From: Alienimonas chondri
Lineage (GTDB): Bacteria > Planctomycetota > Planctomycetia > Planctomycetales > Planctomycetaceae
Reading direction: 5' to 3'
Length of the DNA: 39,864 nucleotides
NCBI RefSeq assembly: GCF_013036045.1
Contig: NZ_WTPX01000031.1
Coordinates: 1 to 39,864 of the forward strand
Every line of letters starts with the position of its first letter. Within the stretch, counting starts at the first letter, position 1. Positions 12,170 to 26,303 of this stretch are shown here, one piece after another. The translations under genes were made by a program, and so were the position numbers. Below the pieces are notes generated by a model that was given only the letters and a program-made list of their open reading frames with translations, was not told where the DNA came from and made no database searches.

Positions 12170-14170
12170 TCAGGCGCCGCCGTCGCTCGGTTCGTCCGCC
12201 GGAGCTGCGGGCGCTCCCGAACTGGGGAGCAGTGCCTGAGCGACCTCCGCCGCGTTCGGACGCAGGCTCCGTCGCGCCACGTTCTCCGCCACGGTCAGCA
12301 GTCGGAGCACGCGATCGAGCGCCTCCGGCGATTCGGATTGAATGCCTGCCGTCCGCATCTTGGCGGAGAGCGAGCCGAGCGACGCGGATCGTCCTCCCAG
12401 CGCCCGTTGGATCGACGCGGGCATCGCGGTCGGATCGTAGATCTCCGCTTCCGTGACCTTCGTTACCGGCACGGCGACCGTGTACTGAACCTCTTGCGTG
12501 CGGGCTTCCGTCCGCTCCCCGCCGGCGCCGTCCGGCACTTCCGCCATGTAATTGACCACCTTCGTACGGACCTCTTGACGCATCGTCGTGTACTCGCGCA
12601 GCACGGTCTTCCGTCGTCCCGCTGCGAAGGCGGAGGGTTGTTCGGCGACGATCGTCGCGATCTTGACGAGAGCCCTTTCGCGGGCGGCGGCGTCCCGGCT
12701 TTTGTCTGCCGCATCGAGGGCCGAGATCGCGGCCTCGATCTCCCTGTCGGTGAATTTCGGCGGCGGGGCGACCGCCGGACCGACGGCCCCCGCGTTGGAG
12801 ACGAGCGGCACATCGCCCGACCCGGAGTTCATCCCGCCCACCGCTCCGGTTCCGGACAGCTGGGCCAGTTCCGCGGTCATCGCGGGGACGAAGAAGCGAT
12901 CCGGCTGCGTGGCGAAGCGATCGGCGAGCCGGCGCAAATCGACCGGCGCCCGACCGTCCACCAACACCGCGGCAAGCTGCAGATGAAGCTGTCTCGTGTA
13001 CCCGAATAGTCCGATCCGTCGCGTCAACCGACCGACGAGATCGGAGGCCACGTCGTCGGGGTCCGGCGGGAGCGGCGCGATGGAGAACCCCGGCACGACC
13101 GTTCCGCCGGGACCGACGATGACCGGCGGAGACGGTCGGCGTGCGCCGAAGCCGATGCCGCCGATGGAGGCGCTGGTTCTCGCCAGCGGCAATCGCAGCG
13201 TCGCGGGACCGGCGGTGCAGCGAATCGTCTGCTTTAACGCCGGCGTCCCCGGCAGTTTCTGCCGCTCCGCCCGGAGAAGAGCGGCGACGTTGAGGTTCGC
13301 CCGCGCGGCCGTCTCGGCCAATGTGAGGACCCCGTCGCGATCGACGTCCGTCTCCGCCTGTCCGAGCGCCGCCGCGAAGCTCCACGCCGTGAGTCCGATC
13401 CCGCCGGTTGTCGATTCGATCTCGAAGCTGGATTCGCCCGAGTCGAAACCGGTAATGAACGCTTCGTTGCCGCCCGATTGGAGAACCTGCCGTCGCTGGG
13501 CGTCGATCGCGACCGCCCCCGGCACGTCGATCGCGGGGCTGACCATTTGCGGGGTCGAACGATCGAGGGACGCATCCCAGAACGTGAGTCGGTGGGCGGC
13601 CGACGAGAGAGCCATCTGAGCCCGCACCTGCGGGACGGAGATGCCCTCGAGGCCCAGCCGCCTGAGCGTCGAATCACTGGCGGCGAAGTAGGGGAGACCG
13701 TTCTCAGTCGTCCCGTAGCCGAAAGCCGCGAACACGCAGACCGTCGGACGTCGATCGGCGGCTCCCCATCGCGAAGCGGCGCCGGCGACGTTCGACAGCG
13801 CCTGCAAGAGTTCGTTCCGCGAGGTGCCCAGGAACTGCACGCCGCTCGTCCGCAATGCGTTCATCCGCTTGACCGACGCCGGACTCTGCGGGATCCGGTC
13901 GATCGCCACGACGCAGTTCGCGGGGGGAATCAGGCCGTATTCCACGACGAACGTGTGGGCCAACAGAACCGCATCGTCCGGAGCCCACGTCGCTCCGGCC
14001 GCCGCCGGCGGCACGTCGGCGGGATGACTGACGCCGACGAACAGGCCGGCGCTGCCGCTGGGCGGAGTCGGCGCCAGTTTCGCCGTCGCGTCCCTCTGGC
14101 GGGCGACCGCTTCGGGAGCGGCAGGCGCCAGCAGCGCCAGCAGGAGGAGGAAACGCGCGAAACGATCCAT
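12170..14170 (-). CDS. Secreted caspase-fold protein with both catalytic residues replaced
   Basis: A 666-aa exported protein starting at ATG 14170 with signal peptide MDRFARFLLLLALLAPAAPEAVA. Residues 40-300 follow the pattern of bacterial C14-type caspase-like peptidases: GLFVGVSHP (first strand), APDDAVLLAHTFVVEYG, a strand ending VFAAFGYG (147-153) where active enzymes have YFSGHG, FWDASLDRS (197-205) where they have LLDACxSG, then a GG..LTAWSFAAALG helix followed by an EF-hand-like DVDRDGVLTLAE (275-286), as seen after many such domains. The His is Phe150 and the Cys is Ser201, so peptidase activity is unlikely. The C-terminal part contains a segment like the YTV motif common in planctomycete secreted proteins (QYTVAVPVTKV). 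It lies 145 bases after the last HSP90-cassette gene, on the same strand. The fold call is by motif pattern only. Confidence 0.72.
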   Translation of the reverse strand: MDRFARFLLLLALLAPAAPEAVARQRDATAKLAPTPPSGSAGLFVGVSHPADVPPAAAGATWAPDDAVLLAHTFVVEYGLIPPANCVVAIDRIPQSPASVKRMNALRTSGVQFLGTSRNELLQALSNVAGAASRWGAADRRPTVCVFAAFGYGTTENGLPYFAASDSTLRRLGLEGISVPQVRAQMALSSAAHRLTFWDASLDRSTPQMVSPAIDVPGAVAIDAQRRQVLQSGGNEAFITGFDSGESSFEIESTTGGIGLTAWSFAAALGQAETDVDRDGVLTLAETAARANLNVAALLRAERQKLPGTPALKQTIRCTAGPATLRLPLARTSASIGGIGFGARRPSPPVIVGPGGTVVPGFSIAPLPPDPDDVASDLVGRLTRRIGLFGYTRQLHLQLAAVLVDGRAPVDLRRLADRFATQPDRFFVPAMTAELAQLSGTGAVGGMNSGSGDVPLVSNAGAVGPAVAPPPKFTDREIEAAISALDAADKSRDAAARERALVKIATIVAEQPSAFAAGRRKTVLREYTTMRQEVRTKVVNYMAEVPDGAGGERTEARTQEVQYTVAVPVTKVTEAEIYDPTAMPASIQRALGGRSASLGSLSAKMRTAGIQSESPEALDRVLRLLTVAENVARRSLRPNAAEVAQALLPSSGAPAAPADEPSDGGA

Positions 14171-14315
14171 GACTCGGCCCTTGTGAAAGATCGGAAAATC
14201 GATCTTGTCAAGTCGGCGCAGGCCCAACAAGCGGCGGTTTCCACGGCGCGAGCTGATATTTCAATATATTCCCGATGCGGCGTCCTTGTCGGCCCCCGAC
14301 TGTCACGAATGAGGC
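14171..14315. promoter_or_regulatory. AT-richer gap upstream of the caspase-like gene
   Basis: This 145-base gap is markedly richer in A/T than its surroundings (gatatttcaatatattccc near 14255). On the minus strand it holds a consensus-like -35 hexamer TTGACA (bases 14211-14206), but no good -10 box lies 15-18 bases further on. A palindrome gatcggaaaatcgatc sits at 14189-14204. It probably holds a promoter for the caspase-like gene, so that gene may be transcribed apart from the HSP90 cassette. Confidence 0.35.
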
Positions 14316-15422
14316 TTATCTCCCCTCCGTCGCAAACGCCCGGCTCGCGGCCTGCCGGCGGGAGACGGCGTCGTTGCCGTTGCGGGCGTCGAATTGTGAG
14401 GCAAGGTCGTCCGCCGCCGCCGTGAACATGGCGCCAAGCTCGGAGGGACGCACCGGGTTCTCGAACTCTTCGATCGGGAAGTCGGTCGGCAGGCGCATCA
14501 CCCGGCGACGATCGGAGTTCCCCGAAAGCCGCTCCAGCGCAACGCCGGCCGCGGACAGATATTCGCGGCGATTGTCGTCGGACGCTCCGCCGACGGCGTC
14601 GGCCGTTCGCTTCAAGAGAGCCGGAACCTCTTTGGCGGCCCCCGTCCGGGCGAGGTAGAGGAAGTGTCGGGCGGCGCACCAGGTGAAGTGCGGGAAGCGA
14701 TTCAACGCGTTCAACCCCAGCCGGTGCTGCTCCGCCGCGTCCTCGTCACGCCCGAGTCGCAGCAACGGCGCGAGCAGTTCGCTGTGGGTGCGTTCCGGCT
14801 CTTCGGCGCAGCTCAGGCACCCATTCAATAGCGGCGCGGCGCGGTCGACGGCTCCGGCGTCGTCGCCCAGCCGGACGGCGTGCGTGACCGTTCGACTGGC
14901 CTCGCAGGCGTGGCAATCGCTGAGGGAGTCCCGCGGGGCCGCCTCGAATCGGGCGAACGCTTCGCCGGCGGCGGCTTCGTCGCCCAGCATCCAGAGAGTA
15001 TTCGCCCGGTAGTTCTCCGCCGGCCGCGGGCTGAACCCGTGGGCCTCGCAGCGGGCGGCGAAGTCGTCGAGGACGGACATCACCCGCTCGACCGGGAACG
15101 CGAGGTAGTCCGCCAGCGAATCCGCCAGCCATTTGTACTTCCACAGCAGGCTATGCCAGTCGACCCATTCGGCTTCGGGGTCGCGGTCAGCCTCGCCCAG
15201 CACGACGGCGAAGGGCGTCAGCGCCCGGTCGTACTGCTTCGCCCCCATCACGGCCTCCCGCACCACCGCGAGCCGCGCCTGCATCCGGAACTCGACGTCG
15301 CACCCGGCGGCGTCGGCCTGCTGCACGACCTCCTCCCACAGCCCCACCGCCGCCGCCCCGGACGGAGCGGATCGAGCCAAGAGGAAGGCGAACTGCACCT
15401 CGGGCGGCAGGTGATCGAACAT
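14316..15422 (-). CDS. HSP90-cassette helical protein, copy 6 (RNGN family)
   Basis: A 368-aa, mostly helical protein, the last of six tandem paralogues downstream of the HSP90 gene. ATG 15422 begins MFDHLPPEV. Family landmarks: YDRALTPFAVVLGEADRDP (64-82), the helix VLDDFAARCEAHGFS (117-131), CHAC (170-173), C205 followed by EEPERTH (H213), LGRDEDAAEQHRLGLNAL (223-240) and the C-terminal FDARNGN (344-350) then RAF. The four residues C170, C173, C205 and H213 could bind a metal. It is closest to copy 5 (15487-16617), sharing long identical runs. Alpha-helical hairpins resemble TPR-type repeats, but no canonical TPR consensus stands out. The gap to copy 5 is 64 bases, the widest within the cassette. 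Function unknown; an adaptor or client-binding partner of the HSP90 protein is my inference. Confidence 0.82.
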   Translation of the reverse strand: MFDHLPPEVQFAFLLARSAPSGAAAVGLWEEVVQQADAAGCDVEFRMQARLAVVREAVMGAKQYDRALTPFAVVLGEADRDPEAEWVDWHSLLWKYKWLADSLADYLAFPVERVMSVLDDFAARCEAHGFSPRPAENYRANTLWMLGDEAAAGEAFARFEAAPRDSLSDCHACEASRTVTHAVRLGDDAGAVDRAAPLLNGCLSCAEEPERTHSELLAPLLRLGRDEDAAEQHRLGLNALNRFPHFTWCAARHFLYLARTGAAKEVPALLKRTADAVGGASDDNRREYLSAAGVALERLSGNSDRRRVMRLPTDFPIEEFENPVRPSELGAMFTAAADDLASQFDARNGNDAVSRRQAASRAFATEGR

Positions 15423-15486
15423 CGCGGTACGGCGTGCGGAAAGGCGAGTCGGACCCGGCCCTCGGCGGACCGGTTCGGGAAGGAAG

Positions 15487-16617
15487 TTACCCGGCGCCTT
15501 GTGCGAAGGCCCGCGCCGCCGCTCGGCGCCGGGTGAAGGCGTCGTTGCCGTTGCGGGCGTTGAACTTCGCCTCGATCGCGTCCGCGGCGGCGCCGATCTG
15601 AGCCGCCAGGTCGGACGGCTTCACGGGGCCGCCGGCGTCCGGCCCGTTGGCGTAGGGGACGGGAAAGCCGGCCGGGAGGGCGAATCGTTTCGCTTTGTCG
15701 GACTTCGCCGCGACGGCTTCGAGGAACACCTCGCTCGCCCCGAGGAACCGCCAGCGGTCGTGATCGGGAACGGCCGGGACCGAGCGGGCGAACCGCTTGA
15801 ACACCCGCCCGCCTGCCGTCAGATCGCCGGTGCGGGTCAGATAGTCGAGGTGGTCGGCGCCGCGGGACACGAACTGCGGGAACCGTTTCAGCGCGTTCAA
15901 GCCGATGCGGTGTCGCTCGGCGGCGTCTTCGTCGCGGCCGAGGCGAATCAGCGGGGCGAGCAGCATGCCGTGCGTGTTCTCCGGCTCCTCCGCACAGCCC
16001 AGCCGACCGGCGGCGAGGGGGATGAACCGTTCGACCGCGCCTGCGTCGTCGCCGGTTTGCACGGCGAACTGCACCGCCCGCGCCGTCTCGCAAGCGCGGC
16101 AGTCGCTCAGCCCGTCGCGGGGGGCCGCTTCGAAACGCTTCATCGCCGCCGCGGCGGCCTCGACGTCGCCCAGCAGCCAGGCGTTGTTCGCCCGGTAGTT
16201 CTCCGCGGGCCGCGCGGAGAACCCGTGCGCCGCCGCCCGGTCCGCGAAGTCGTCGAGGATCGCGAAAATCTTCTCCCGCGGGATCGCCGCGTACTCGCCC
16301 GTCGAATCGCTGAGCCACTTGTACTTCCACAGCAGCTGATACCAATCGACCCACTCCGCGTCCGGATCGCGATCCGCTTCGGCCAAGAGGGTCGCCCAGG
16401 GGCCGAACGCCCGATCGTATTGCTTCACGCCGTCGGATGCGGCCGCTTCGACCAACTCCTCCCGGAACGACATCCGCACCTCCGCGGGGAGGTTCGCCGC
16501 ATCGGCGCGGGCGACGGCGGACTCCCAAAGCGCCACTTTTGCGGGGCCGTCTGGCGCGAAGTAGGCCGCTTCCGCGGCCTCGAACACGTCGGGCGGAAGA
16601 TCTTCGGCGGAGAACAT
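15487..16617 (-). CDS. HSP90-cassette helical protein, copy 5 (RNGN family)
   Basis: A 376-aa paralogue of copy 6. ATG 16617 (MFSAEDLPPDVFEAAEAAYF) matches the start of copy 6; a longer upstream frame only overlaps copy 4. Shared landmarks: YDRAFGPWATLLAEADRDP (67-85), AEWVDW then LLWKYKWLSDS (87-105), the DDFADRAAAHGFSARPAENYRANN region (122-145), CRAC (173-176), C208 with EEPENTH (H216), and FNARNGN (352-358) followed by RAFAQG. Its identity to copy 6 through the middle points to a recent duplication. The cysteine/histidine set is intact. Copy 4 ends 16 bases upstream of this start, so the two are probably on one transcript. No enzymatic motif is visible. Confidence 0.83.
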   Translation of the reverse strand: MFSAEDLPPDVFEAAEAAYFAPDGPAKVALWESAVARADAANLPAEVRMSFREELVEAAASDGVKQYDRAFGPWATLLAEADRDPDAEWVDWYQLLWKYKWLSDSTGEYAAIPREKIFAILDDFADRAAAHGFSARPAENYRANNAWLLGDVEAAAAAMKRFEAAPRDGLSDCRACETARAVQFAVQTGDDAGAVERFIPLAAGRLGCAEEPENTHGMLLAPLIRLGRDEDAAERHRIGLNALKRFPQFVSRGADHLDYLTRTGDLTAGGRVFKRFARSVPAVPDHDRWRFLGASEVFLEAVAAKSDKAKRFALPAGFPVPYANGPDAGGPVKPSDLAAQIGAAADAIEAKFNARNGNDAFTRRRAAARAFAQGAG

Positions 16618-16633
16618 CGCGGGGCGACTTTCG

Positions 16634-17782
16634 TCAGGGGTTAGCGGGGACGGCTGCACCGAACACGAAGGTCCGTGCCCGGCGGTGCAGGCGAAGATGG
16701 AAGTCGTTGCCGTTGCGTCGGTCGAACGCGAGCGCCAACGCTTCGGCCTCCGCATCCATCGCGGCGATCAACGGGGCCGGGTCCGATCGTCCCGCGGCCC
16801 CCGCCAGCGGAGCGAGCGCGTCCCCCTTCGGAAACGCCAGCGCCGGGGCGTCGCCCGTTCTCGCCAACGTTTCCAGCGACGGCGACGCGGCGGAGAGGAA
16901 CTGCATCCGGTCGTCCGGGGCGACGTCCCCGAGGAACGGAACGGTGCGACGCAGCAGACCTTGGAGATCCCGCTTCGCGACCTCGGCGGAGCGGGCGGAA
17001 ACGCCCCCGCGGGCGACGACGTGACCTAGGAACATGGCGCACAGCCCGGCGGCGTGAACCCGGTGCGGCTCGGATCGCAGGATTGCGGCGCAGTTTCCGT
17101 AGTAACGCACGGCCGTCTCGTCCTCGCCGGCATCGACCAACGCCCGTAGCACGAACGGTTCCCGCAGGCCGTGGCATACGTATTCCACGCAGGTCAATCG
17201 GCCGTCGATCAGTCGGCGGCCGTGTTCGCGGATCGCCGGCAGGTCGTCGGCGTACCAGGCGAAATCCAGCCGCTGTCGGACTCGGCAGTGCTCGCAGAGA
17301 GCGAAGTGCCCGTTCCAGGGATGCGACATGCGATGCAGCAGTTCCGCGGCGCGATCGAGATCGCCGGTCGCCTGGGCGAGGTTGAGCAGTCCGTCGGTGA
17401 TCTCCGCGTCGGCCAAGCCCTCCGCCTCGCCCCGGCGGGCGAACTCTTCGCCCAGCTCTCGGAGTCGACTGAGCGGGACGTCCGGGAAACAGGTCGCTCC
17501 GGTCAGCAGGGAGGGGAACGTGACCATCAATTGACCGCCGTCGTCACAGGCGTCCGGATCGGCGTCCACGTCCTTCAACAGGCGTGGGAACAGGGCGAGT
17601 GCGACGTGATATTGCGACGCCATCATCGCCGCATCCAGCTGCCCCATCCGCGCCCAAAACGAAATGCGCTCGTCTCGCTCGGCATCGGCGCGGCGGGCCA
17701 CGTCGGCGAACGCCGCGGTTCGTCCCGGCCCGTGGCAGTGAGCGTCGGCGGCGTGGAGCAGGGCTTCGAGATCGTCGTCCAT
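16634..17782 (-). CDS. HSP90-cassette helical protein, copy 4 (RNGN family)
   Basis: A 382-aa paralogue starting at ATG 17782, two bases after the stop of copy 3. Landmarks: YHVALALFPRLLKDVDADP (58-76), the LRELGEEFARRGEAEGLA helix (107-124), CEHC (163-166), C198 followed by C203-H204 (TCVEYVCH), and FDRRNGN (353-359). In place of the EEPxxTH of copies 5 and 6, this copy has a Cys-His pair at the same place, so four metal-binding candidates remain though their spacing differs. It pairs with copy 3 in sequence (LLxRMSxPWxGHFAxC shared). Tight spacing implies translational coupling. An extended upstream frame (to 18112) is antisense-free but overlaps copy 3 and is rejected. Confidence 0.83.
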   Translation of the reverse strand: MDDDLEALLHAADAHCHGPGRTAAFADVARRADAERDERISFWARMGQLDAAMMASQYHVALALFPRLLKDVDADPDACDDGGQLMVTFPSLLTGATCFPDVPLSRLRELGEEFARRGEAEGLADAEITDGLLNLAQATGDLDRAAELLHRMSHPWNGHFALCEHCRVRQRLDFAWYADDLPAIREHGRRLIDGRLTCVEYVCHGLREPFVLRALVDAGEDETAVRYYGNCAAILRSEPHRVHAAGLCAMFLGHVVARGGVSARSAEVAKRDLQGLLRRTVPFLGDVAPDDRMQFLSAASPSLETLARTGDAPALAFPKGDALAPLAGAAGRSDPAPLIAAMDAEAEALALAFDRRNGNDFHLRLHRRARTFVFGAAVPANP

Positions 17783-17784
17783 CG

Positions 17785-18948
17785 CTAGGGATCCTTCCCG
17801 GCTGCGGCGGGCGGCGCCAATTCGCCCAGGGCGAATGCTCGGTGCAGGGCGTGATGCCGTCGGTGGAACGCGTTGCCGTTGCGGCGGTCGAACGCCTCCG
17901 CGAGCGCCTCCGCCTCCGCGTCCATCGCCGCGGCCAGCGCATCCGGGTCGGCCTGCCCGGGCTCGCCGGCGAGGTCCGCGAGCGGATCGCCGGCGGGGAA
18001 TCGCAGCGGGGGCGGGTCGCCGATCTCCGCCAGCGCCGCGATCGCGGGAGCCGCGGGCGTGAGCAGTTCCATGCGATTGTCCGGGCTGATTCCGTCGGCC
18101 AGCCCGACGCATCGCCTCAGCAGTGCGGAGAGCGCGGCGCCGGCCTCCGGGACGGTCAGTCCGTCCGCTCCGCCGCGGTGAATGACGTGGGAAAGGAACG
18201 ACAGATGCAGCCCCGGCATCACGACCCAGAACGGACCGGACCGCATTCCCGCCGCCGCGACGCGGTAGCGCCGAATCGCTTCGTCCAGTTCCCCCGCCAG
18301 CGTCAGCGAGCGGAAAATCAGCGCCTCGCGCGGGCCGCAGAACTCAAAGCGAACGCATCGCAGGTCCTCGTCGATCAAGCGGCGGACCAGCCGGAGGATC
18401 GTCGGGTGATCCTCGGCGCACCAGGGCAACATCAGTTCGTGCCGCAACCGACAATGCGTGCACTCCGCAAAATGCCCGCCCCACGGCTTCGACATCCGCT
18501 TCAGCAAGCGCTCGGCCCGGGACAGATCGCCGGTCGCGGCGGCGAGGCGAAACAGGCCGCCGGCGATCTCCGAATCGTGTCGCCCCGCGGCGGCGGCGCG
18601 ACGGGCGAAGTCCTCGCCGAGTTCGCGGAGCCGTTCGAGGGGGATCTCCGGGAAGCTCGTCGCCCCGCCCAGCAGCATCGGGAAGGCCAGCAGGAGTTGA
18701 TCTTCCAACTGGAATCGGCCCGGCTCGGCGTCCGCATCGGCCAGCAGCCGGGGGAAGGTGGAGAGGGCGATGTCGAACCGATTCGTCATCACCGCCGCGT
18801 CCAACAGGCCGAGCCGTGCATTGAACGCCGCTTCGGCGTGGCCGTCCGCTTCCGCCCGCCGGGCGAGGTCGGCGAACGCATCCACTCGCCCCGCGTCGTA
18901 CGGCCGGGAGGCCGCCTCTTCCAGCGCGTCGTCGAGCGCCGTCGTCAC
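17785..18948 (-). CDS. HSP90-cassette helical protein, copy 3 (RNGN family)
   Basis: A 387-aa paralogue. The start is GTG 18948, whose last two bases belong to the TGA stop of copy 2 (GTGA overlap), a classic coupled arrangement. Landmarks: FDIALSTFPRLLADADAEP (58-76), LRELGEDFARR (107-117), LLKRMSKPWGGHFAECTHC (148-166, with C163 and C166), C198 and C204 (RCVRFEFCG), PDNRMELL and FDRRNGN (353-359) then RAFALG. The C-terminus is Pro/Ala-rich. Sequence, spacing and motif arrangement make it the sister of copy 4. As in the other copies, helices dominate and there is no signal peptide, so a cytoplasmic place is expected. Confidence 0.83.
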   Translation of the reverse strand: MTTALDDALEEAASRPYDAGRVDAFADLARRAEADGHAEAAFNARLGLLDAAVMTNRFDIALSTFPRLLADADAEPGRFQLEDQLLLAFPMLLGGATSFPEIPLERLRELGEDFARRAAAAGRHDSEIAGGLFRLAAATGDLSRAERLLKRMSKPWGGHFAECTHCRLRHELMLPWCAEDHPTILRLVRRLIDEDLRCVRFEFCGPREALIFRSLTLAGELDEAIRRYRVAAAGMRSGPFWVVMPGLHLSFLSHVIHRGGADGLTVPEAGAALSALLRRCVGLADGISPDNRMELLTPAAPAIAALAEIGDPPPLRFPAGDPLADLAGEPGQADPDALAAAMDAEAEALAEAFDRRNGNAFHRRHHALHRAFALGELAPPAAAGKDP

Positions 18949-20228
18949 GTCCGCGGCCCCCGATCGCCTGGCTCGTCGCTGTAGTCGTCGCCGTTATCGT
19001 CGCCGGGAACCTGGTCCGAGGCGTCGGCCAGCGGATCGGCGGACGATTCGGCCGCTTCCCACAGCGCCCGCAACCGCTCGCGGCGCGGCGCCGGCACGCG
19101 ATCGATGCCGGAGCCGGGACCGAACACGAACGCCCGATTCCCCGCGGTCTCGACCGCGAGGTACTCGTTGCCGTTGCGGGCTGCGAAGGCTTCGTCCAGA
19201 AGGTCGGCCTCGGCAAGCAGCGGGGCGACGACGTCTGAAGGACTGCGCAACGGCGGGGAGGTCGAATCATCCTCTCCCGGCAGCAGCAGTCGCAGCGGTT
19301 CGTCGTGCTGGGCGGCGAGCGCCTCGCAGGCGAAGCCGCACGCCTGATACGCCTGCCCGCGGAAGCTCGGGCCCATCTGCGGCGCCGCCTTCAACAAACG
19401 GCGGACGCGGGTCCGCAATCGCTCGACATCTTCCTCGCCCATCCGCTCCGGCTGGCGGGCGAGTCGGCGGGAGGCGTACTCCGCCAACAGGATGTCCCCG
19501 AACAGCCAGGAGCCGGAGCGGGCGTCGGCCTCGGCGAAGTTTCGGTCGGCTTCCTCCTCCTCACCGGCCCAGATCAGCGGTCGCAGCGACCACTCCAGAA
19601 AGGAACTCCGCCACATCCACGCCCCGGGGATCTGGTTCGCGATGACCGGCCGCATCGCGGCCAGCGATCGCTCCGGCTGGGCGGTGTAGATGCCGGCGAG
19701 GGCCTCGGCGTCCCAGGATCGCGGGAGGCCGGCGCGTTCCCTCGCCCGGATCATCGCCACGCACATCGCGGGCACCGCTTCCAAATCGCCCAGCGTGCCG
19801 CGGGCATGGAGGCGCGTCTCGTACATGTCCGCCTCGTCCCCGCCGAGCGCGTCGACCCGCCGGGCGAAGTCGTCGAGGAGCGATTCGACCCGCTCCCGCG
19901 GAATGGACGGGTAGCGGGTCGTGTACCGCAGCACCTCCGCGTAGGCGGTGAGAACGCGGTCGGGCGGGGAGCCGTCCGCGGCGGCGGCGTCGGGATCGGC
20001 GTCGAAATCAGCCAGCAGCGCCGCGAAGGTCGGCAGGACGCGGTCGTCGCCCAACTCCGTGCCCGCCGCGGCGATCAACAGCGCCCACCGCACCCGCCGC
20101 AACCGCCCCGGGTCGCCGGTGGCCTCCGTACGCCGGGCCAGATCCGCGAGCGCGGCGACCTTCGCCGGTCCCGAGGGCATGACCTCCAGCTCGAACAGCT
20201 CGCGGTGGAAGGCGTCGCTTTCGCTCAT
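18945..20228 (-). CDS. HSP90-cassette helical protein, copy 2 (RNGN family, no CxxC)
   Basis: A 427-aa member starting at ATG 20228. It keeps the family frame: GDDRVLPTFAALLADFDADP (60-79), RERVESLLDDFARRVDALGG (111-130), the middle helical region and the C-terminal FAARNGN (348-354) followed by NRAFVFG (364-370). The CxxC and third cysteine present in copies 3-6 are missing. It has an extra acidic tail (SDQVPGDDNGDDYSDEPGD) of about 55 residues after the RNGN block, which the others lack. Two acidic, disordered-looking ends in this cassette (this tail and the end of the HSP90 protein) might interact with basic partners; that is speculation. It overlaps copy 3 by 4 bases. Confidence 0.82.
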   Translation of the reverse strand: MSESDAFHRELFELEVMPSGPAKVAALADLARRTEATGDPGRLRRVRWALLIAAAGTELGDDRVLPTFAALLADFDADPDAAAADGSPPDRVLTAYAEVLRYTTRYPSIPRERVESLLDDFARRVDALGGDEADMYETRLHARGTLGDLEAVPAMCVAMIRARERAGLPRSWDAEALAGIYTAQPERSLAAMRPVIANQIPGAWMWRSSFLEWSLRPLIWAGEEEEADRNFAEADARSGSWLFGDILLAEYASRRLARQPERMGEEDVERLRTRVRRLLKAAPQMGPSFRGQAYQACGFACEALAAQHDEPLRLLLPGEDDSTSPPLRSPSDVVAPLLAEADLLDEAFAARNGNEYLAVETAGNRAFVFGPGSGIDRVPAPRRERLRALWEAAESSADPLADASDQVPGDDNGDDYSDEPGDRGPRT

Positions 20229-20264
20229 GCGGCGGTGTCGGCGCGGGGACGGACGGGCGGGGAC

Positions 20265-21290
20265 TCACCAATGGTAATCGCGGCCAAGAACGAACGCCCG
20301 GTCCCGCCGCAGCCGGGCCGATGCGAGGCCGTTTCCGTTGCGCCGGTCGAACGCCGCGGCAAGGCGGTCGGCCTCAGCCGACAGTGCCGCGGCGGCTACG
20401 GAAAAATCGGCCGGCTGGTCCCCCTGAGCGCCCAGGCCGGGTGGCAAGCGAAGTCGGACGGCTCGTGGGTCGGCCGCTTCCAGCACCTCGCAGGCCGCCG
20501 CAGCCGCGGGCCACAGTTCCAAGCGGATGCCGACCGGCGCGTGCGGCCCCAACCGGAACGCCCTTCGGAGCAGCGGAGGGAGGGTATTCGCCACGTCTCG
20601 CTTCCTCCCCACGCCACGCGAACAAGCCTCCCGCACGGCCCGCCGCAACCGGGCCGCCACGTCGTGCGGCATCTCGTAGGCGCTCGCTCTGAGCGGTCGG
20701 TCAGGAATCTCCCACAGCTTCGGTACGGGAACGGCCTTGGCCAGTCGGAACGCCCAGGGGCCAGCCAGTTGGGGAATCCGGCGATCTGCCGCGGTAGCGA
20801 GCCGGTGGACCAGTCGATCCGCCGTCGGCAGACGGCTCTCTCTTCCGAGATGGTGGACCAAGAGCAGGCGGATGCCGGTGAGATCGTCATCGCCTCGACC
20901 CCACAGCTTGACGCGGGCGGCGAAATCATTCGTGAGATCAATCAGTCGGCCCCGGAAAACGGCGGGGTCCATCATCGCGCCCCACAGCGCGAGCGGGTAA
21001 AACCTGACGAGCGTCGCCGCGGAGACTCCGCCGGCGCGGGCCGGGTCGCGGTCGTATTCGGCCAGCAGCCATGCGAACGCCGGCAGCACGCGGTCGGCCC
21101 GGTTGAGTCCCGCCCCGGTCGCCGCGTCCAATAATCCGATCCGAGCTCGCACCTGGTCGTCGCGAGCGTCCCCGGCGTCCGCCAGTCGGACCGCCTCGGC
21201 CCAGCCGAGCATTCGGCCAAGGTCGTGCGGCCGAGCTTCCAACTCCGGGAAGAGTCGCCGCAACCGCTCTCGGGCGACGGCATCACCCAT
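20265..21290 (-). CDS. HSP90-cassette helical protein, copy 1 (RNGN family, no CxxC)
   Basis: A 341-aa member, the shortest and most diverged. ATG 21290 lies inside the end of the HSP90 gene: the HSP90 stop occupies 21285-21283, an overlap of eight bases, so translation is probably coupled. Landmarks: ADRVLPAFAWLLAEYDRDP (65-83), RGRLIDLTNDFAARVKLWGRG (113-133) and FDRRNGN (314-320) then RDRAFVLG (329-336). CxxC is absent. A basic helix region (RLRRAVREACSRGVGRKRD) occurs in the middle. Being directly coupled to the HSP90 gene, it is the best candidate for a direct partner in fixed stoichiometry. The next gene (copy 2) starts 36 bases downstream. Confidence 0.82.
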   Translation of the reverse strand: MGDAVARERLRRLFPELEARPHDLGRMLGWAEAVRLADAGDARDDQVRARIGLLDAATGAGLNRADRVLPAFAWLLAEYDRDPARAGGVSAATLVRFYPLALWGAMMDPAVFRGRLIDLTNDFAARVKLWGRGDDDLTGIRLLLVHHLGRESRLPTADRLVHRLATAADRRIPQLAGPWAFRLAKAVPVPKLWEIPDRPLRASAYEMPHDVAARLRRAVREACSRGVGRKRDVANTLPPLLRRAFRLGPHAPVGIRLELWPAAAAACEVLEAADPRAVRLRLPPGLGAQGDQPADFSVAAAALSAEADRLAAAFDRRNGNGLASARLRRDRAFVLGRDYHW

Positions 21291-23238
21291 CGTCGCTCTC
21301 TTTGCCGGCCCCGTCGGCTCGGCCCACGCCGCGGCCATCGACGGCGGCGGCGATCAGGCCGAGCAGACTGTCGCCGAACAGTTCGAACTCCGCCTCGCCC
21401 AGCGGATAATGGCCGAGCATCAAACTCTGAACGTACAGCAACTCCACGGCGGTGCGGACCGTACCGCGGGCCACGGCACCGCCGCGGTCGTCCGGCGTCG
21501 CGGCGGTCGCCGCCAGATTCCGGATCAGCGGGTGCGACCAGTTCAAACAGAGGCGCGGCCCCTCGACCTGCGGGCGAGCCTTCTGCATCTCGTTTAGCAG
21601 GCCGCCCCAGAGCTCGTTGGCCTGTTCCTTCGACCGTTCCATGTCTCGCAGGAAGCTCGCTTCTTCCCCGATGGCGTACAGCGCCGGCAACGTCTTCGGC
21701 TCGAACCGACGCACGTCCGGCGTGCAGTCCAGCGGGGTGAGGGCGTCGGACGCGACGTTCAGCAGCGTCGAGGCGGCGTCCCAGGCGTCATCTTCCAGTT
21801 CGGTGAAGTCCTCCGAGAGGTCCGCCGCGGTGACCTTCTCCGTCGTCACCGGCAGCACGTCCGGCAGCGTTTCGAGCAATTCCTGCTCGTCCGTGTAGCA
21901 GGCGTTGACGACGACCATCCCCTGAGCGCTGGCCACCGGGGCGAGCTGTCGGAACTGGTCCATCGTCGAGGCGAATCGCAGCCGATCGTCGGACCGCTTG
22001 CGGATCTCCTCCAACCGCAGCCGGCCGGCGGTCGTCTCGAAGGGCAGCCAGTCCGCGGCGAGTTTGCGGAACTCCTCGTCCTCCACGGCGAGCCGCTTCA
22101 CGGCCCGGTAGTGGACGTCGATCAGTCGATGCAACCGATCGCGGTCCTTCGCCGCCCACCGCAGCAGCGTGCGACGCAGGCTCATCCCGAGTTCGTCGCG
22201 GGCCTCGGCCAACTCCGCGTCGTCCCGCAGTTCCTCCCGGCTGGCGGTCGGATGCAGGCCGTCCGCGTTCAGCACGCAGGTGACGAAGAACGCCCAGTCC
22301 GGCAGCAGACCGTCCGCCTTCTCGCTCAGCAACATTCGCTTGAGATAGACGCGATGATCGCCGGTGCGGCTGCGGACGGTCGATTCCGGCCGGACCAGCG
22401 CCACGCCGCGGACCTTGCCGGCGTCGGAGGTCACGGGGAAGGCATCGAGGAACTTCTTGCCTAGCGCGGCCTCCGCCCACTCCAACAATCCTTCGCGGTC
22501 GGCGGGCGAGTCGGTCGGGAATTGCTCCCAGGGCGGAACCTCGTTGAGCGGCTCCTCCCCCCCGTCGGGACCGGATCGGCCGTGCTTGAAGGTCACGGGG
22601 AAGGGCAGCAGCGAACCGTAGCTCGCGGCCCGTTCCCTGACCGTCTCCGGCTCGAAGTGTTCGAGGCGATCCTCACGGGCCCGCAGGAAGACCTGCGTGC
22701 CGGGAGCGAGGTCCGCGTTCAGCGTGCGAACGGTGTACGTCCCGTCCGCCCGGCCGCGCCACTCGACCGGGCGGGCGTCCGGCTCCACGCTGCGAGTGAT
22801 GGCGACGATCTCCTCCGCGACGAGGAACCCGGCCAGCAAACCGATGCCGAAGCGGCCGATGAACGTGTCCTCCTGAATGTCGCCCCGCTTGGCGCTGCGG
22901 CCGATCTTGGCGAGGAACTCGTGCACCTCCGGCTCGGTCAGGCCGACGCCGTTGTCTCTGACGGAGAGCGTCGGCGGGTGATTCGTCCCGTCCTCGGTGG
23001 TGCGGGCCGGCAGCAGTTCGAGCGTCACCCGACCGTCGGACAGTTTGAAGTCTTCGTCCTTCGCCGTGCGAGCGGTGAGGGCGTCCACGCCGTTCTGCAG
23101 CAACTCCCGGACGACGACCCGGGGGCCGGAATAGAGGTGCTCGCTGAGCAGTTCGATGACCCCCCGCAGATCGACTTGGAATCGGTGATCCGAGCTGGCG
23201 GGACCCGCGGTCGCGGGATCGGCGGCGGTGTCGCTCAT
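21283..23238 (-). CDS. HSP90-family ATPase (HtpG paralogue) heading a seven-gene cassette
   Basis: A 651-aa protein of the HSP90/HtpG family, starting at ATG 23238. The GHKL ATP site is complete: RELLQNGVDA (44-53, catalytic E45, N49), DNGVGL (95-100), IGRSAKRGD (112-120) and the GRFGIGLLAGF lid region (128-138). The middle-domain segment LLPDWAFFVTCVLNADGLHPTASREEL (311-337) matches the HtpG segment with the catalytic Arg (here R334). Sequence is far from standard HtpG, especially in the C-terminal third, and the end is Asp-rich (KESDDG). It fits the diverged group called simply HSP90 family protein rather than housekeeping HtpG. It should be an ATP-driven chaperone; clients are unknown. The six RNGN-family genes follow on the same strand, the first overlapping its stop. 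It is divergent from the ThuA gene with 89 bases between starts. Confidence 0.9.
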   Translation of the reverse strand: MSDTAADPATAGPASSDHRFQVDLRGVIELLSEHLYSGPRVVVRELLQNGVDALTARTAKDEDFKLSDGRVTLELLPARTTEDGTNHPPTLSVRDNGVGLTEPEVHEFLAKIGRSAKRGDIQEDTFIGRFGIGLLAGFLVAEEIVAITRSVEPDARPVEWRGRADGTYTVRTLNADLAPGTQVFLRAREDRLEHFEPETVRERAASYGSLLPFPVTFKHGRSGPDGGEEPLNEVPPWEQFPTDSPADREGLLEWAEAALGKKFLDAFPVTSDAGKVRGVALVRPESTVRSRTGDHRVYLKRMLLSEKADGLLPDWAFFVTCVLNADGLHPTASREELRDDAELAEARDELGMSLRRTLLRWAAKDRDRLHRLIDVHYRAVKRLAVEDEEFRKLAADWLPFETTAGRLRLEEIRKRSDDRLRFASTMDQFRQLAPVASAQGMVVVNACYTDEQELLETLPDVLPVTTEKVTAADLSEDFTELEDDAWDAASTLLNVASDALTPLDCTPDVRRFEPKTLPALYAIGEEASFLRDMERSKEQANELWGGLLNEMQKARPQVEGPRLCLNWSHPLIRNLAATAATPDDRGGAVARGTVRTAVELLYVQSLMLGHYPLGEAEFELFGDSLLGLIAAAVDGRGVGRADGAGKESDDG

Positions 23239-23327
23239 GGCGGCGTCGGCGGAGGGAAGTAGGCGGGGGCGGCGAGCCTCGGACCCGGGTAGGATAACGG
23301 GCGTTCGCCCCGCCCGGACGTCCCCAC

Positions 23328-26303
23328 GTGCTCGCTTCCGCTCCGCTGTCTCTTTTCCTCTCCGCCGCCCTGTTGGGCGCCGCCCTCGCCCCGCCGCCGG
23401 ATGACTCCGGCGGCGCCGAAGCCGACGCCGGGGAGGACCGGGTTCGGACCGTGCTGCTGATCGCCGGGGAGGACGATTCTCACGCCGCCGGCACGCACGA
23501 GTACGCCGCGACCGTCGCCGCGCTCGCGGAGTATTTGAAGGACTCGAACGTCGGCGAGCGCCTGCGGGTCGAAACCGCGGTCGGCTGGCCGAAGGACGCC
23601 GCGGCGCTGGACCGGGCCGACTGCGTGTTCCTCTATTCCGGCGGCGGCGATCGCGACGAGAAGAACCATCCGCTGTTGGTTGGCGATCGCTGGTCGCAGC
23701 TCGAAGCCGCCGCGGCGCGGGGGTGCGGCGTGGTGCTGCTGCACTGGTCGACGTTCCTGCCGGACCGCCTGCACGACTCCGCGATGGCGGTCGTGGGCGG
23801 ACGGTTCGACTACGAGGGCGGCGAGCACCCCAAGGGGTGGGAGAGCCGCATCAACTTCGCCCAACCGACCGTCACGCCGACGGCCGATCACCCGGTCACG
23901 GACGGCGTCGAACCGCATCACTTACACGACGAGTTCTACCACCACCTCTCGTTTCCGAAGGCGAAGGCCGGCTGGACGCCCCTGCTGACCGCCCCGCTGC
24001 CGGAGGACGACGGCACGACCTCATCGCAGACCGTCGCGTGGGCGCTCGAGCGGGCAGTGACGTCCGGCGGGTCGATACATCGGGCCGTCGGCTTCACCGG
24101 CGGTCACTTCGAGAAGAACCTCAAGGGAGAGGGGACGGAGGCGAACCACCGGCGGTTCCTGATGAACGCGATCGCCTGGTCCGCGGGGCTGGAGATTCCG
24201 CGGGGCGGCGTGCGGACGTTCGACGAACTCTGGACCCCCGTCAGCCGAACCGACGCCAAGCTGCCCTATGAAGTCGAGAAGGAGCCGGACTGGATCGACG
24301 ATCGCATCCGCGACATGGACCCCGGGCCGTTCTTCTTCAGCAGCCTCAGCCTGCCCGACGGGGAGAAGATCTTGAAGGGGGTGGCGATCACCGTGCCGGG
24401 GGCGTCGCCGGAGGAGCACGTCGCCGTGGACACGCTCACCGGCGTCGCCCGTTGCGGCTGGGGCGGCCGGTTCCTCGAACACACCGACCGCCGCTACGGA
24501 CTGATCGATCTGCCCAAGGTCGGCGGGGAATGCGTCTGGAGCCTGCCGAAGACCGCGCGCTGGACGGTCCGCGACGAATCAGGCGAGGTGACGCCGGCAG
24601 AGGTCAAATACGATGCCCTGACGGTCGACGGCCCCGACGTGACGCTGCACTTCACGATCGCCGGCGAGGTGGTGCGATTCCTGGCGGATGAGAACGGGAC
24701 GCGCTACGAAAGCGGTCTCGGCGGGGAGAAACTGTCGCCGCCCGCCGGCGGGCCGGGGCTGCGGGTTCGGTGGCAGTTGGGGGCGCCGTACGCCGACCCG
24801 GCGCCGCGATGGACGCCGCTGGTCACCGCCGGCCGGCTGGGCAAGCCGCTGGCGGAATCCGCCGAGGCCTTCGCCGTGGATACGGTCGATCTGCCGTTCG
24901 ACAACCCGCCGAACGCATTGCTGTTCCTCTCCGGTCTGGGCTTCACGCCGGACGGGACGGCGTACGTCGCCGCGGCCCATGGCGACGTCTGGCAGGTGCG
25001 GGGATTGGACGGCGACCTGTCGCAGATCGAGTGGCGCCGATTCGCCACGGGCTTCTACCAACCGCTCGGGATGACGGTACGTCTGACGGCGGAGAGCGAA
25101 CCGGAAATCTTCGCGCTCGGCCGCGACCGGATCACGAAGCTGATCGACGTGAACGGCGACGGCGAGGCCGATCGCTACGAGAGCTTCAACGCCGACCTCG
25201 ACATCATCGGCCAACCGCACGCCTATGCGATGGGGTTGGAGACGGACGCGGAGGGCAACTTCTATTTCCTCAAAAGCGGCTCCGCGAGCACGAAGCAGGG
25301 CGGCTGCCTGGTGCAGGTGACGGCGGACGGGGCGGAGATGAAAGTCGTCGCGACCGGCTTCCGGCACCCCAACGGCATCGGTTTGAGTCCGGAAGGTTCG
25401 TCGTTCGCGGGACTGGTGACGGCCGCGGACAACGAGGGCAACTGGGTGCCGGCGACGCCGCTGCACCTGATCGATCCGTCGGTCGCCGTCTCCGACGCGG
25501 CGGCGGCGAAGTATTACGCCGGGTTCGTGCCGACGGCCCACCGGGAGGCGACGATCGCCTTCGATCAGCCCGCCCTCTGGATGCCGCGGGCCGTCTGCAC
25601 CAGCGCCGGCGGTCAGTGCTGGGTGCCCTGCGACGATCACTGCGACGAGGCGTGGGGTTCGCTGGCTGGTTCGATGCTGCACCTCTCGTATGGCCGCTGC
25701 ACGGCGAACCTCGTGCTGACCGAAGACCTGCATGTCCCCGGCGCCCCGCGGGCGCAGGGTGCGGTGATGCCGCTGCCCGGCGTGACGTTCCAGGCCGGCG
25801 TGTGTCGCGGACGCTTCTTCCCGGGCACGGCGGACCTGTGGGTCTGCGGCCTGGACGGCTGGCAGACCGCGGCGGTGAAGGACGGCTGCCTCCAGCGCCT
25901 CCGACGCACCGACGCGCCCGTGCGGCTGCCGACCTCCCTCAAGGTCCACCGCGACGGACTCGAATTGCGCTTCGCCACGGAACTGGCCGAAGAAGCCGCC
26001 GACCCGGCGAACTGGGACATCGAAGCGTGGACGTACAAACGCACCGCGGACTACGGCTCGCCGGAGCTGCGCCCGTCCGATCCGGAGCAGGAGGGCCACG
26101 ACGTCTGGCCGGTGGCGGCGGTGTCGCTCTCGCCGGACCGCCGCGGGGCGTACCTGTCGATCCCCCGGCTCGAACCGGTGATGCAGTATTCGCTGCACGC
26201 CGACCTGACCGCCGCCGACGCGGCGCCCGTGCCGGTGCGGCTGTTCGGCACGATCCACCACGCCGGCGATCGCTGGCTGGGCTGGGGAGGCGAAGGCGGA
26301 TGA
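23328..26303 (+). CDS. Secreted ThuA-domain / beta-propeller protein
   Basis: A 991-aa exported protein, GTG start at 23328, with signal peptide MLASAPLSLFLSAALLGAALA. Residues 40-290 form a ThuA-like (glutamine-amidotransferase-fold) domain: VLLIAGEDDSHAAGTHEY, FLYSGGGD, GVVLLHWSTFLP and HLHDEFYHHLSF. A middle region (about 320-460) with ILKGVAITVPG and VDTLTGVARCGWGGRFLEHTDRRYG is conserved in planctomycete secreted proteins. Residues 520-900 look like a sorbosone/glucose-dehydrogenase-type propeller (LGFTPDGTAYVAAAHGDVWQV, FYQPLGM, ITKLIDVNGDGEADRYE, FRHPNGIGLSPEG). Relatives often end in a c-type cytochrome; no CxxCH is present here. Predicted role is periplasmic carbohydrate handling, but neither reaction nor substrate can be read from sequence. 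A kinase gene starts 31 bases after it. Confidence 0.85.
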   Translation: MLASAPLSLFLSAALLGAALAPPPDDSGGAEADAGEDRVRTVLLIAGEDDSHAAGTHEYAATVAALAEYLKDSNVGERLRVETAVGWPKDAAALDRADCVFLYSGGGDRDEKNHPLLVGDRWSQLEAAAARGCGVVLLHWSTFLPDRLHDSAMAVVGGRFDYEGGEHPKGWESRINFAQPTVTPTADHPVTDGVEPHHLHDEFYHHLSFPKAKAGWTPLLTAPLPEDDGTTSSQTVAWALERAVTSGGSIHRAVGFTGGHFEKNLKGEGTEANHRRFLMNAIAWSAGLEIPRGGVRTFDELWTPVSRTDAKLPYEVEKEPDWIDDRIRDMDPGPFFFSSLSLPDGEKILKGVAITVPGASPEEHVAVDTLTGVARCGWGGRFLEHTDRRYGLIDLPKVGGECVWSLPKTARWTVRDESGEVTPAEVKYDALTVDGPDVTLHFTIAGEVVRFLADENGTRYESGLGGEKLSPPAGGPGLRVRWQLGAPYADPAPRWTPLVTAGRLGKPLAESAEAFAVDTVDLPFDNPPNALLFLSGLGFTPDGTAYVAAAHGDVWQVRGLDGDLSQIEWRRFATGFYQPLGMTVRLTAESEPEIFALGRDRITKLIDVNGDGEADRYESFNADLDIIGQPHAYAMGLETDAEGNFYFLKSGSASTKQGGCLVQVTADGAEMKVVATGFRHPNGIGLSPEGSSFAGLVTAADNEGNWVPATPLHLIDPSVAVSDAAAAKYYAGFVPTAHREATIAFDQPALWMPRAVCTSAGGQCWVPCDDHCDEAWGSLAGSMLHLSYGRCTANLVLTEDLHVPGAPRAQGAVMPLPGVTFQAGVCRGRFFPGTADLWVCGLDGWQTAAVKDGCLQRLRRTDAPVRLPTSLKVHRDGLELRFATELAEEAADPANWDIEAWTYKRTADYGSPELRPSDPEQEGHDVWPVAAVSLSPDRRGAYLSIPRLEPVMQYSLHADLTAADAAPVPVRLFGTIHHAGDRWLGWGGEGG

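Follow-up and report, generated by a model that had tools for sequence, protein, structure and literature searches.

The window analysed here is a 39,864-nucleotide stretch of the planctomycete Alienimonas chondri (assembly GCF_013036045.1, contig NZ_WTPX01000031.1, positions 1–39,864), and our subject is a cluster on its minus strand in which an HSP90 gene (21283–23238) is followed by six tandem paralogues, c1 to c6, spanning 14316–21290. The HSP90 product has 651 amino acids and those of c1–c6, hereafter the partners, have 341, 427, 387, 382, 376 and 368, with starts as chosen in an earlier note on this DNA; c1, c4 and c5 could mechanically begin further upstream, but the family alignments favour the shorter forms. 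All seven open reading frames of that note were found where it had placed them, and its junctions from HSP90 through c6 (−8, +36, −4, +2, +16 and +64 bases) were reproduced when recomputed from the coordinates.

The window HSP90 and the predicted fold of its partners

The window HSP90 was compared with curated profiles. It matched NCBIfam NF010683 (‘HSP90 family protein’) over residues 15–635 with 649.6 bits (E = 4.6e-195; curated cut-off 455), which makes it a member of that family, whereas it reached 152.9 bits against canonical HtpG (PRK05218; curated cut-off 371) and is not HtpG. Because another Hsp90, an HtpG encoded on contig C1 of the same genome, is much nearer the Pfam HSP90 model, the window protein is the second, divergent Hsp90 of this genome. 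Its ATPase motifs are intact, with RELLQN (in RELLQNGVD), DNGVGL, GRFGIG and SRE covering the GHKL ATP site and the middle-domain arginine motif, and the model of an orthologue exhibits the full N-M-C Hsp90 fold, matching TRAP1/Hsc82 over residues 7–600 with Z of ~30. The family also has residues that are fixed where HtpG is fixed differently, for example RELxQN in place of RELxSN and, in the ATP lid, SSK in place of SGT. The membership and the fold agree with the earlier identification of the gene as an HSP90 paralogue, a distinct one rather than an HtpG with additional partners. In PADLOC, the protein gave a short ATPase-domain match to TmtA models and no full-length match.

Chen et al. (2006; PMC1525184) recognised three groups of bacterial HtpG, A, B and C. 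Since Actinobacteria and Firmicutes fall in groups A and C and S. coelicolor has two HtpG copies, of 638 and 615 amino acids, the window HSP90 is a putative member of HTPG group C, and we call it HSP90-C; S. coelicolor HTPG2 is probably of the same NF010683/HTPG group C type. HSP90-C itself is an already named annotation family (NF010683). Another divergent Hsp90-like family, scoring ~240–270 bits against NF010683 and thus below cut-off, was observed in four relatives (L038, L039, L040 and L041 in G024, G137, G120 and G065), where it has no partner.

The six genes c1–c6 are true paralogues, with pairwise identities of 26–56% and hidden Markov model E-values of 1e-106 to 1e-166, which means that their similarity is not due to chance. 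RNGN, FA.R and L..D.P are invariant across the six copies. The note had described such a six-paralogue family with shared motifs, and this description holds; it had also placed RNGN at the C terminus, and this needs refining, as the motif, although shared by all six, sits ~15–80 residues before the C-terminal end. The signatures of the wider family are W.YKW, D-C-x2-C, a third cysteine ~32 residues further on, and D.RNG. Alignment A3 shows no variation at the three cysteines (C170, C173 and C205 in c6), which occur in all of 86 aligned proteins except c1 and c2, with c3–c6 retaining them. W.YKW, D.RNG and the C-x2-C...C cluster may have a structural role or form contact sites.

The partners matched no Pfam, NCBIfam or PADLOC model at cut-off, and a search of PDB sequences with a relative gave no match either. 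Pfam tetratricopeptide repeat (TPR) families gave nothing above the gathering cut-off in the six window copies or in short-form relatives, and in the Streptomyces long form (for example that of Streptomyces scabiei, L105) the TPR_12 match is confined to the C-terminal extension. Such long forms, of ~650–1000 amino acids and with an additional, TPR-matching region behind the family domain, were observed at most actinomycete loci (among them L105, 11842–14781, L086, L091 and L098). A model of c6, built from an alignment of 70 relatives, is an all-helical solenoid of ~18 helices with a mean pLDDT (predicted local distance difference test) of 96.3 and a pTM (predicted template modelling score) of 0.92. 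Foldseek returned weak matches for this model (best E = 5e-4), and structural alignment gave Z of 20.8 with the TPR domain of APC5, 20.3 with MalT domain III and 16–18 with Rap/NprR receptors. The Z values of ~20 for APC5 and MalT indicate that the predicted partner fold is a TPR-like superhelix (α-solenoid), which supports the analogy with TPR proteins drawn in the note.

Linkage and co-inheritance of the pair

The genomic neighbourhood of HSP90-C was surveyed in 80 named loci that encode it. In 77 of these, a member of the partner family lies within ~0.8 kb of HSP90-C, nearly always on the same strand and directly downstream; at the other three, the partner runs off the contig end (L042) or lies elsewhere in the assembly (Flexithrix L069 and the planctomycete L078). 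The pair is hosted by nine phyla: Planctomycetota, Myxococcota, Bacillota, Actinomycetota, Acidobacteriota, Deinococcota, Thermodesulfobacteriota, Pseudomonadota and Bacteroidota. Counted from the final sense codon of HSP90 and including the stop codon, the first family-like codon comes after a median of 3 bases (82 pairs), and one reading-frame register is common to 65 of these 82 pairs. Tight spacing and a shared register are the pattern expected for translational coupling. A third operon member was looked for, and none is shared by the different phyla; the most widespread other neighbour, a Ser/Thr kinase-like cluster, is present at 10 loci on mixed strands. In one planctomycete metagenome-assembled genome, partner genes near HSP90-C are fragmented by stops or frame changes (L177 and L178 in G613; also L043), reflecting sequencing errors or decay.

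Co-occurrence was then scored in samples from four phyla, with HSP90-C called as an NF010683 match above cut-off and the partner family, in the same genomes, as a strong full-length match with alignment A3; a few weak partial family matches (E above 1e-5) were left out of the counts. Among 149 Planctomycetota genomes, HSP90-C is present in 6 and the family in the same 6, with none in the 143 genomes lacking HSP90-C. The corresponding sets coincide in Bacillota (4 of 249 genomes; family in 0 of the other 245), in Bacteroidota (2 of 296; 0 of the other 294) and in Actinomycetota (7 of 198), the last with one further genome that has a lone family member (G330; 1 of 191). In total, the family occurs in 19/19 genomes with HSP90-C and in 1/873 without it. 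The Planctomycetota sample was centred on the window’s own genome and the three other samples on a genome known to have the pair; with the four centre genomes removed, the counts are 15/15 and 1/873. Fisher’s test on Planctomycetota, Actinomycetota and Bacillota gave p = 5e-32, a value that ignores shared ancestry. Large numbers of genomes have ordinary HtpG-type matches and lack the family, and 2 of 14 named control genomes score above the cut-off for HSP90-C.

HSP90-C and its partner are a conserved, co-inherited two-gene unit of nine phyla, the partner being essentially restricted to genomes with HSP90-C. The earlier note had proposed a dedicated system of an HSP90 and helical proteins, an idea that it would have given up had the family proved widespread without this HSP90; the counts show the reverse and support such a system strongly.

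The two genes also keep together when linkage is altered. Both are present yet apart in G018, G107 and Flexithrix, in G018 on separate contigs of an assembly at draft stage, and the partner lies upstream of HSP90-C in G079 and convergent with it in L084, which shows that the linkage has been rearranged without loss of either gene. G182 and G320 each have the adjacent pair in duplicate, with one partner for every HSP90-C copy, and in Streptomyces there are two paralogous HSP90-C classes, each with a matching, distinct partner class. HSP90-C and partner distances are correlated with r = 0.87, a value not reached in any of 1000 permutations (0/1000). That the genes are neighbours through descent or hitchhiking, with no bond of function, is hardly credible: much of the gene order within Streptomyces and Paenibacillus is indeed ancestral, but co-presence without linkage, the differing gene orders, the spread over nine phyla and the contrast of 19/19 with 1/873 all speak against it.

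Copy number and the role of the partner

The usual number of partners is one. Two are present in L033, L098, L114, G461, two relatives in this family and one Listeria strain, and the window genome has exactly six, all within this cluster. Of the system described in the note, an HSP90 with helical partners is retained, and six copies are not the norm; the congener carries four. In a phylogenetic tree, the six window copies group as one moderately supported clade (SH-aLRT, the Shimodaira–Hasegawa-like approximate likelihood ratio test, 89), and c5 + c6 and c3 + c4 are grouped at 99.

All six copies lie on the minus strand. The first, c1 (20265–21290), shares 8 bases with the HSP90 gene and, like c2 (18945–20228), lacks the three family cysteines; c2 has a long acidic C-terminal tail. 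They are followed by c3 (17785–18948), with a GTG start and a 4-base overlap with c2, its sister c4 (16634–17782; ~51% identity to c3), c5 (15487–16617) and c6 (14316–15422). In a finished congener genome (G610), the cluster lies between the same flanks and contains four partners, the orthologues of c2, c3, c5 and c6 (85, 76, 82 and 71% identical, respectively). The ratio of non-synonymous to synonymous substitution rates (dN/dS) of these four is 0.17–0.29, and that of HSP90, which is 90% identical, is 0.15. The low values indicate that at least c2, c3, c5 and c6 are diverged copies maintained under purifying selection and not decaying. The remaining two have no congener orthologue, the best likeness to any congener copy being 51% for c4 and ~37% or less for c1; given these low identities, c1 and c4 are most likely older than the split of the two species, with later loss in G610.

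Upstream of HSP90-C is an 89-base gap (23239–23327), shared with a divergent plus-strand gene for a 991-aa (amino acid) protein (23328–26300), which adjoins HSP90-C in the congener too (77% identity). The block GTTATCCTACCCGGGTCCGA in this gap, picked out by eye, also occurs in the congener and may be a promoter. Downstream of c6, a minus-strand gene (12170–14230) encodes a 686-aa protein with no Pfam match, an insertion or a loss relative to G610. It was rejected as an operon member, because the congener has no such gene between these flanks.

In Listeria monocytogenes NCTC7974, fri is followed by the gene for an HSP90 family protein and then by those for two members of the partner family (annotated ‘hypothetical protein’), an SMI1/KNR4 protein, a low-molecular-weight tyrosine phosphatase and the lmo0937 protein. 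lmo0942 has been reported to adjoin fri (PMC3534079), and, judged by gene order, the Listeria unit corresponds to lmo0942–lmo0941–lmo0940, the last two numbers being assigned because the order runs down to lmo0937. A selection signal has been found at lmo0941, the function of which was stated there to be unknown (PMC6901971). Copy number varies within the species, with two tandem partners in NCTC7974 (L205, 4178–7963) and one in FDAARGOS_57 (L206). A search for viral carriage with the single c6 protein yielded no match; matches in a phage collection were rejected as viral carriage, since the records are short, lack annotation and for the most part bear the label Listeria, and are most simply fragments of the chromosomal Listeria gene.

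These observations bear on a signalling or conflict switch, in which the solenoid would act as a sensor in the manner of Rap/NprR or MalT domain III and be kept inactive by HSP90-C until a ligand or stress appears. Both MalT domain III and the Rap/NprR peptide receptors are among the structural neighbours, and the tandem diversification, the copy-number difference in L. monocytogenes and the selection signal at lmo0941 would suit such a device. However, TPR-like matches are common among helical repeats, the short form has no output domain, the partners have no PADLOC match, the pair has no conserved third gene, and its co-inheritance is deep rather than patchy and mobile. We regard the switch as improbable.

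On balance, we lean towards a self-contained chaperone module in which HSP90-C works with a dedicated TPR-like solenoid, encoded immediately after it, as co-chaperone or client adaptor, the single partner gene having been expanded in this planctomycete genus. HSP90-C and its partner would be made from one transcript, and the solenoid would bind HSP90-C, present substrates on its repeat surface and/or set the HSP90-C ATPase cycle. In the planctomycete genus, one partner gene would have multiplied into six or more diverged paralogues, for which the simplest interpretation is that they are alternative adaptors serving a single Hsp90. A stronger form of this proposal, which we put forward tentatively, is that the partner is an obligate co-chaperone: an unnamed TPR-like family that accompanies group C Hsp90 in at least nine phyla, arose independently of the TPR co-chaperones of eukaryotes and became, within a single planctomycete genus, a six-member adaptor set that directs different clients to one Hsp90.

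Several observations weigh against a co-chaperone or adaptor. A read-through HSP90–partner polypeptide, modelled with AlphaFold as one chain from eight paired rows and with a single HSP90 chain, had good local confidence, no confident interface and a pTM of 0.64, the value expected if the HSP90 and partner halves have no defined relative position; with so few paired rows and one HSP90 chain, this model says little for or against binding. No conserved C-terminal or EEVD-like motif was found in ~80 HSP90-C tails, which vary in length and sequence; because these tails are not conserved, the eukaryotic EEVD carboxylate clamp is probably unused by this pair. The correlation of distances is raised by operon co-inheritance itself. 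Lone long-form partners were observed in G330 (L150, 6805–10014), a genome with no HSP90-C, and on an Actinomyces oris plasmid (L207, 6001–9036), where no HSP90 is adjacent, and for this reason the partner may sometimes act alone. Finally, the genome context appears compatible with a co-chaperone and a dedicated client alike. Conservation of the C-terminal domain was considered as an interface clue and rejected, HSP90-C being no more conserved there than HtpG.

The main rival follows from that last point: the solenoids could be dedicated clients that HSP90-C folds or holds and that themselves do a scaffold or signalling job. HSP90-C was never seen without a partner and the partner rarely without HSP90-C (G330 and the A. 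oris plasmid), an asymmetry that fits a client slightly better, and both the extra C-terminal TPR array of actinomycete partners and the tandem copies, as duplicated clients served by one chaperone, are in keeping with it. Yet a compact repeat protein that is predicted with confidence is not obviously hard to fold, an ATP-driven Hsp90 dedicated to one client would be unusual, and the lone partners imply that HSP90-C is not strictly required for partner retention. We judge a dedicated client role unlikely, though a serious contender, and retain the co-chaperone or adaptor as the working interpretation.

Comparison with known systems

In the open-licence literature, we found no description of HSP90-C’s partner or of the pair. 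A previous analysis stated that no obligate Hsp90 co-chaperone had been identified in bacteria, hsp90B and hsp90C having been left out of it (PMC3708813), and for HtpG of a streptomycete no specific function was known (PMC3603443). What is new here is an unnamed partner family paired with a known divergent bacterial Hsp90; the kind of arrangement, an Hsp90 with a TPR-type partner, is already known. The field has so far found no dedicated co-chaperone of bacterial Hsp90, and the partners are candidates for that role. A protein family that follows a single lineage of bacterial Hsp90 this closely through nine phyla offers concrete, testable gene pairs for the question of bacterial co-chaperones, some of them in organisms with established genetics such as Streptomyces and Listeria, and it suggests an independent origin of Hsp90–TPR teamwork outside eukaryotes.

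Within bacteria, the closest described entity is NF010683, putatively HTPG group C and represented by Listeria lmo0942, of which the window HSP90 is a member and in which the partner genes are annotated as hypothetical proteins. HtpG (hsp90A) and HSP90-C share the full N-M-C fold and the ATPase motifs, but only HSP90-C has a partner, and it falls well under the HtpG cut-off and has fixed signatures of its own. The partner shares the overall TPR-like superhelix of MalT domain III, Rap/NprR and the APC5 TPR domain (Z of 16–21), from which it differs in having 7–12% identity and the family-specific CxxC...C, W.YKW and RNG motifs. A further parallel is eukaryotic Hsp90 with its TPR co-chaperones (Hop/Sti1, FKBP51/52, PP5 and CHIP), where, as here, an Hsp90 is associated with specific TPR-type α-solenoid proteins, several per Hsp90 in the case of the window. 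No sequence relationship between the two sets was found; the eukaryotic proteins use a three-TPR clamp domain, whereas the bacterial pair is operon-linked and combines an HSP90-C that lacks EEVD with a partner that is a solenoid over its whole length.

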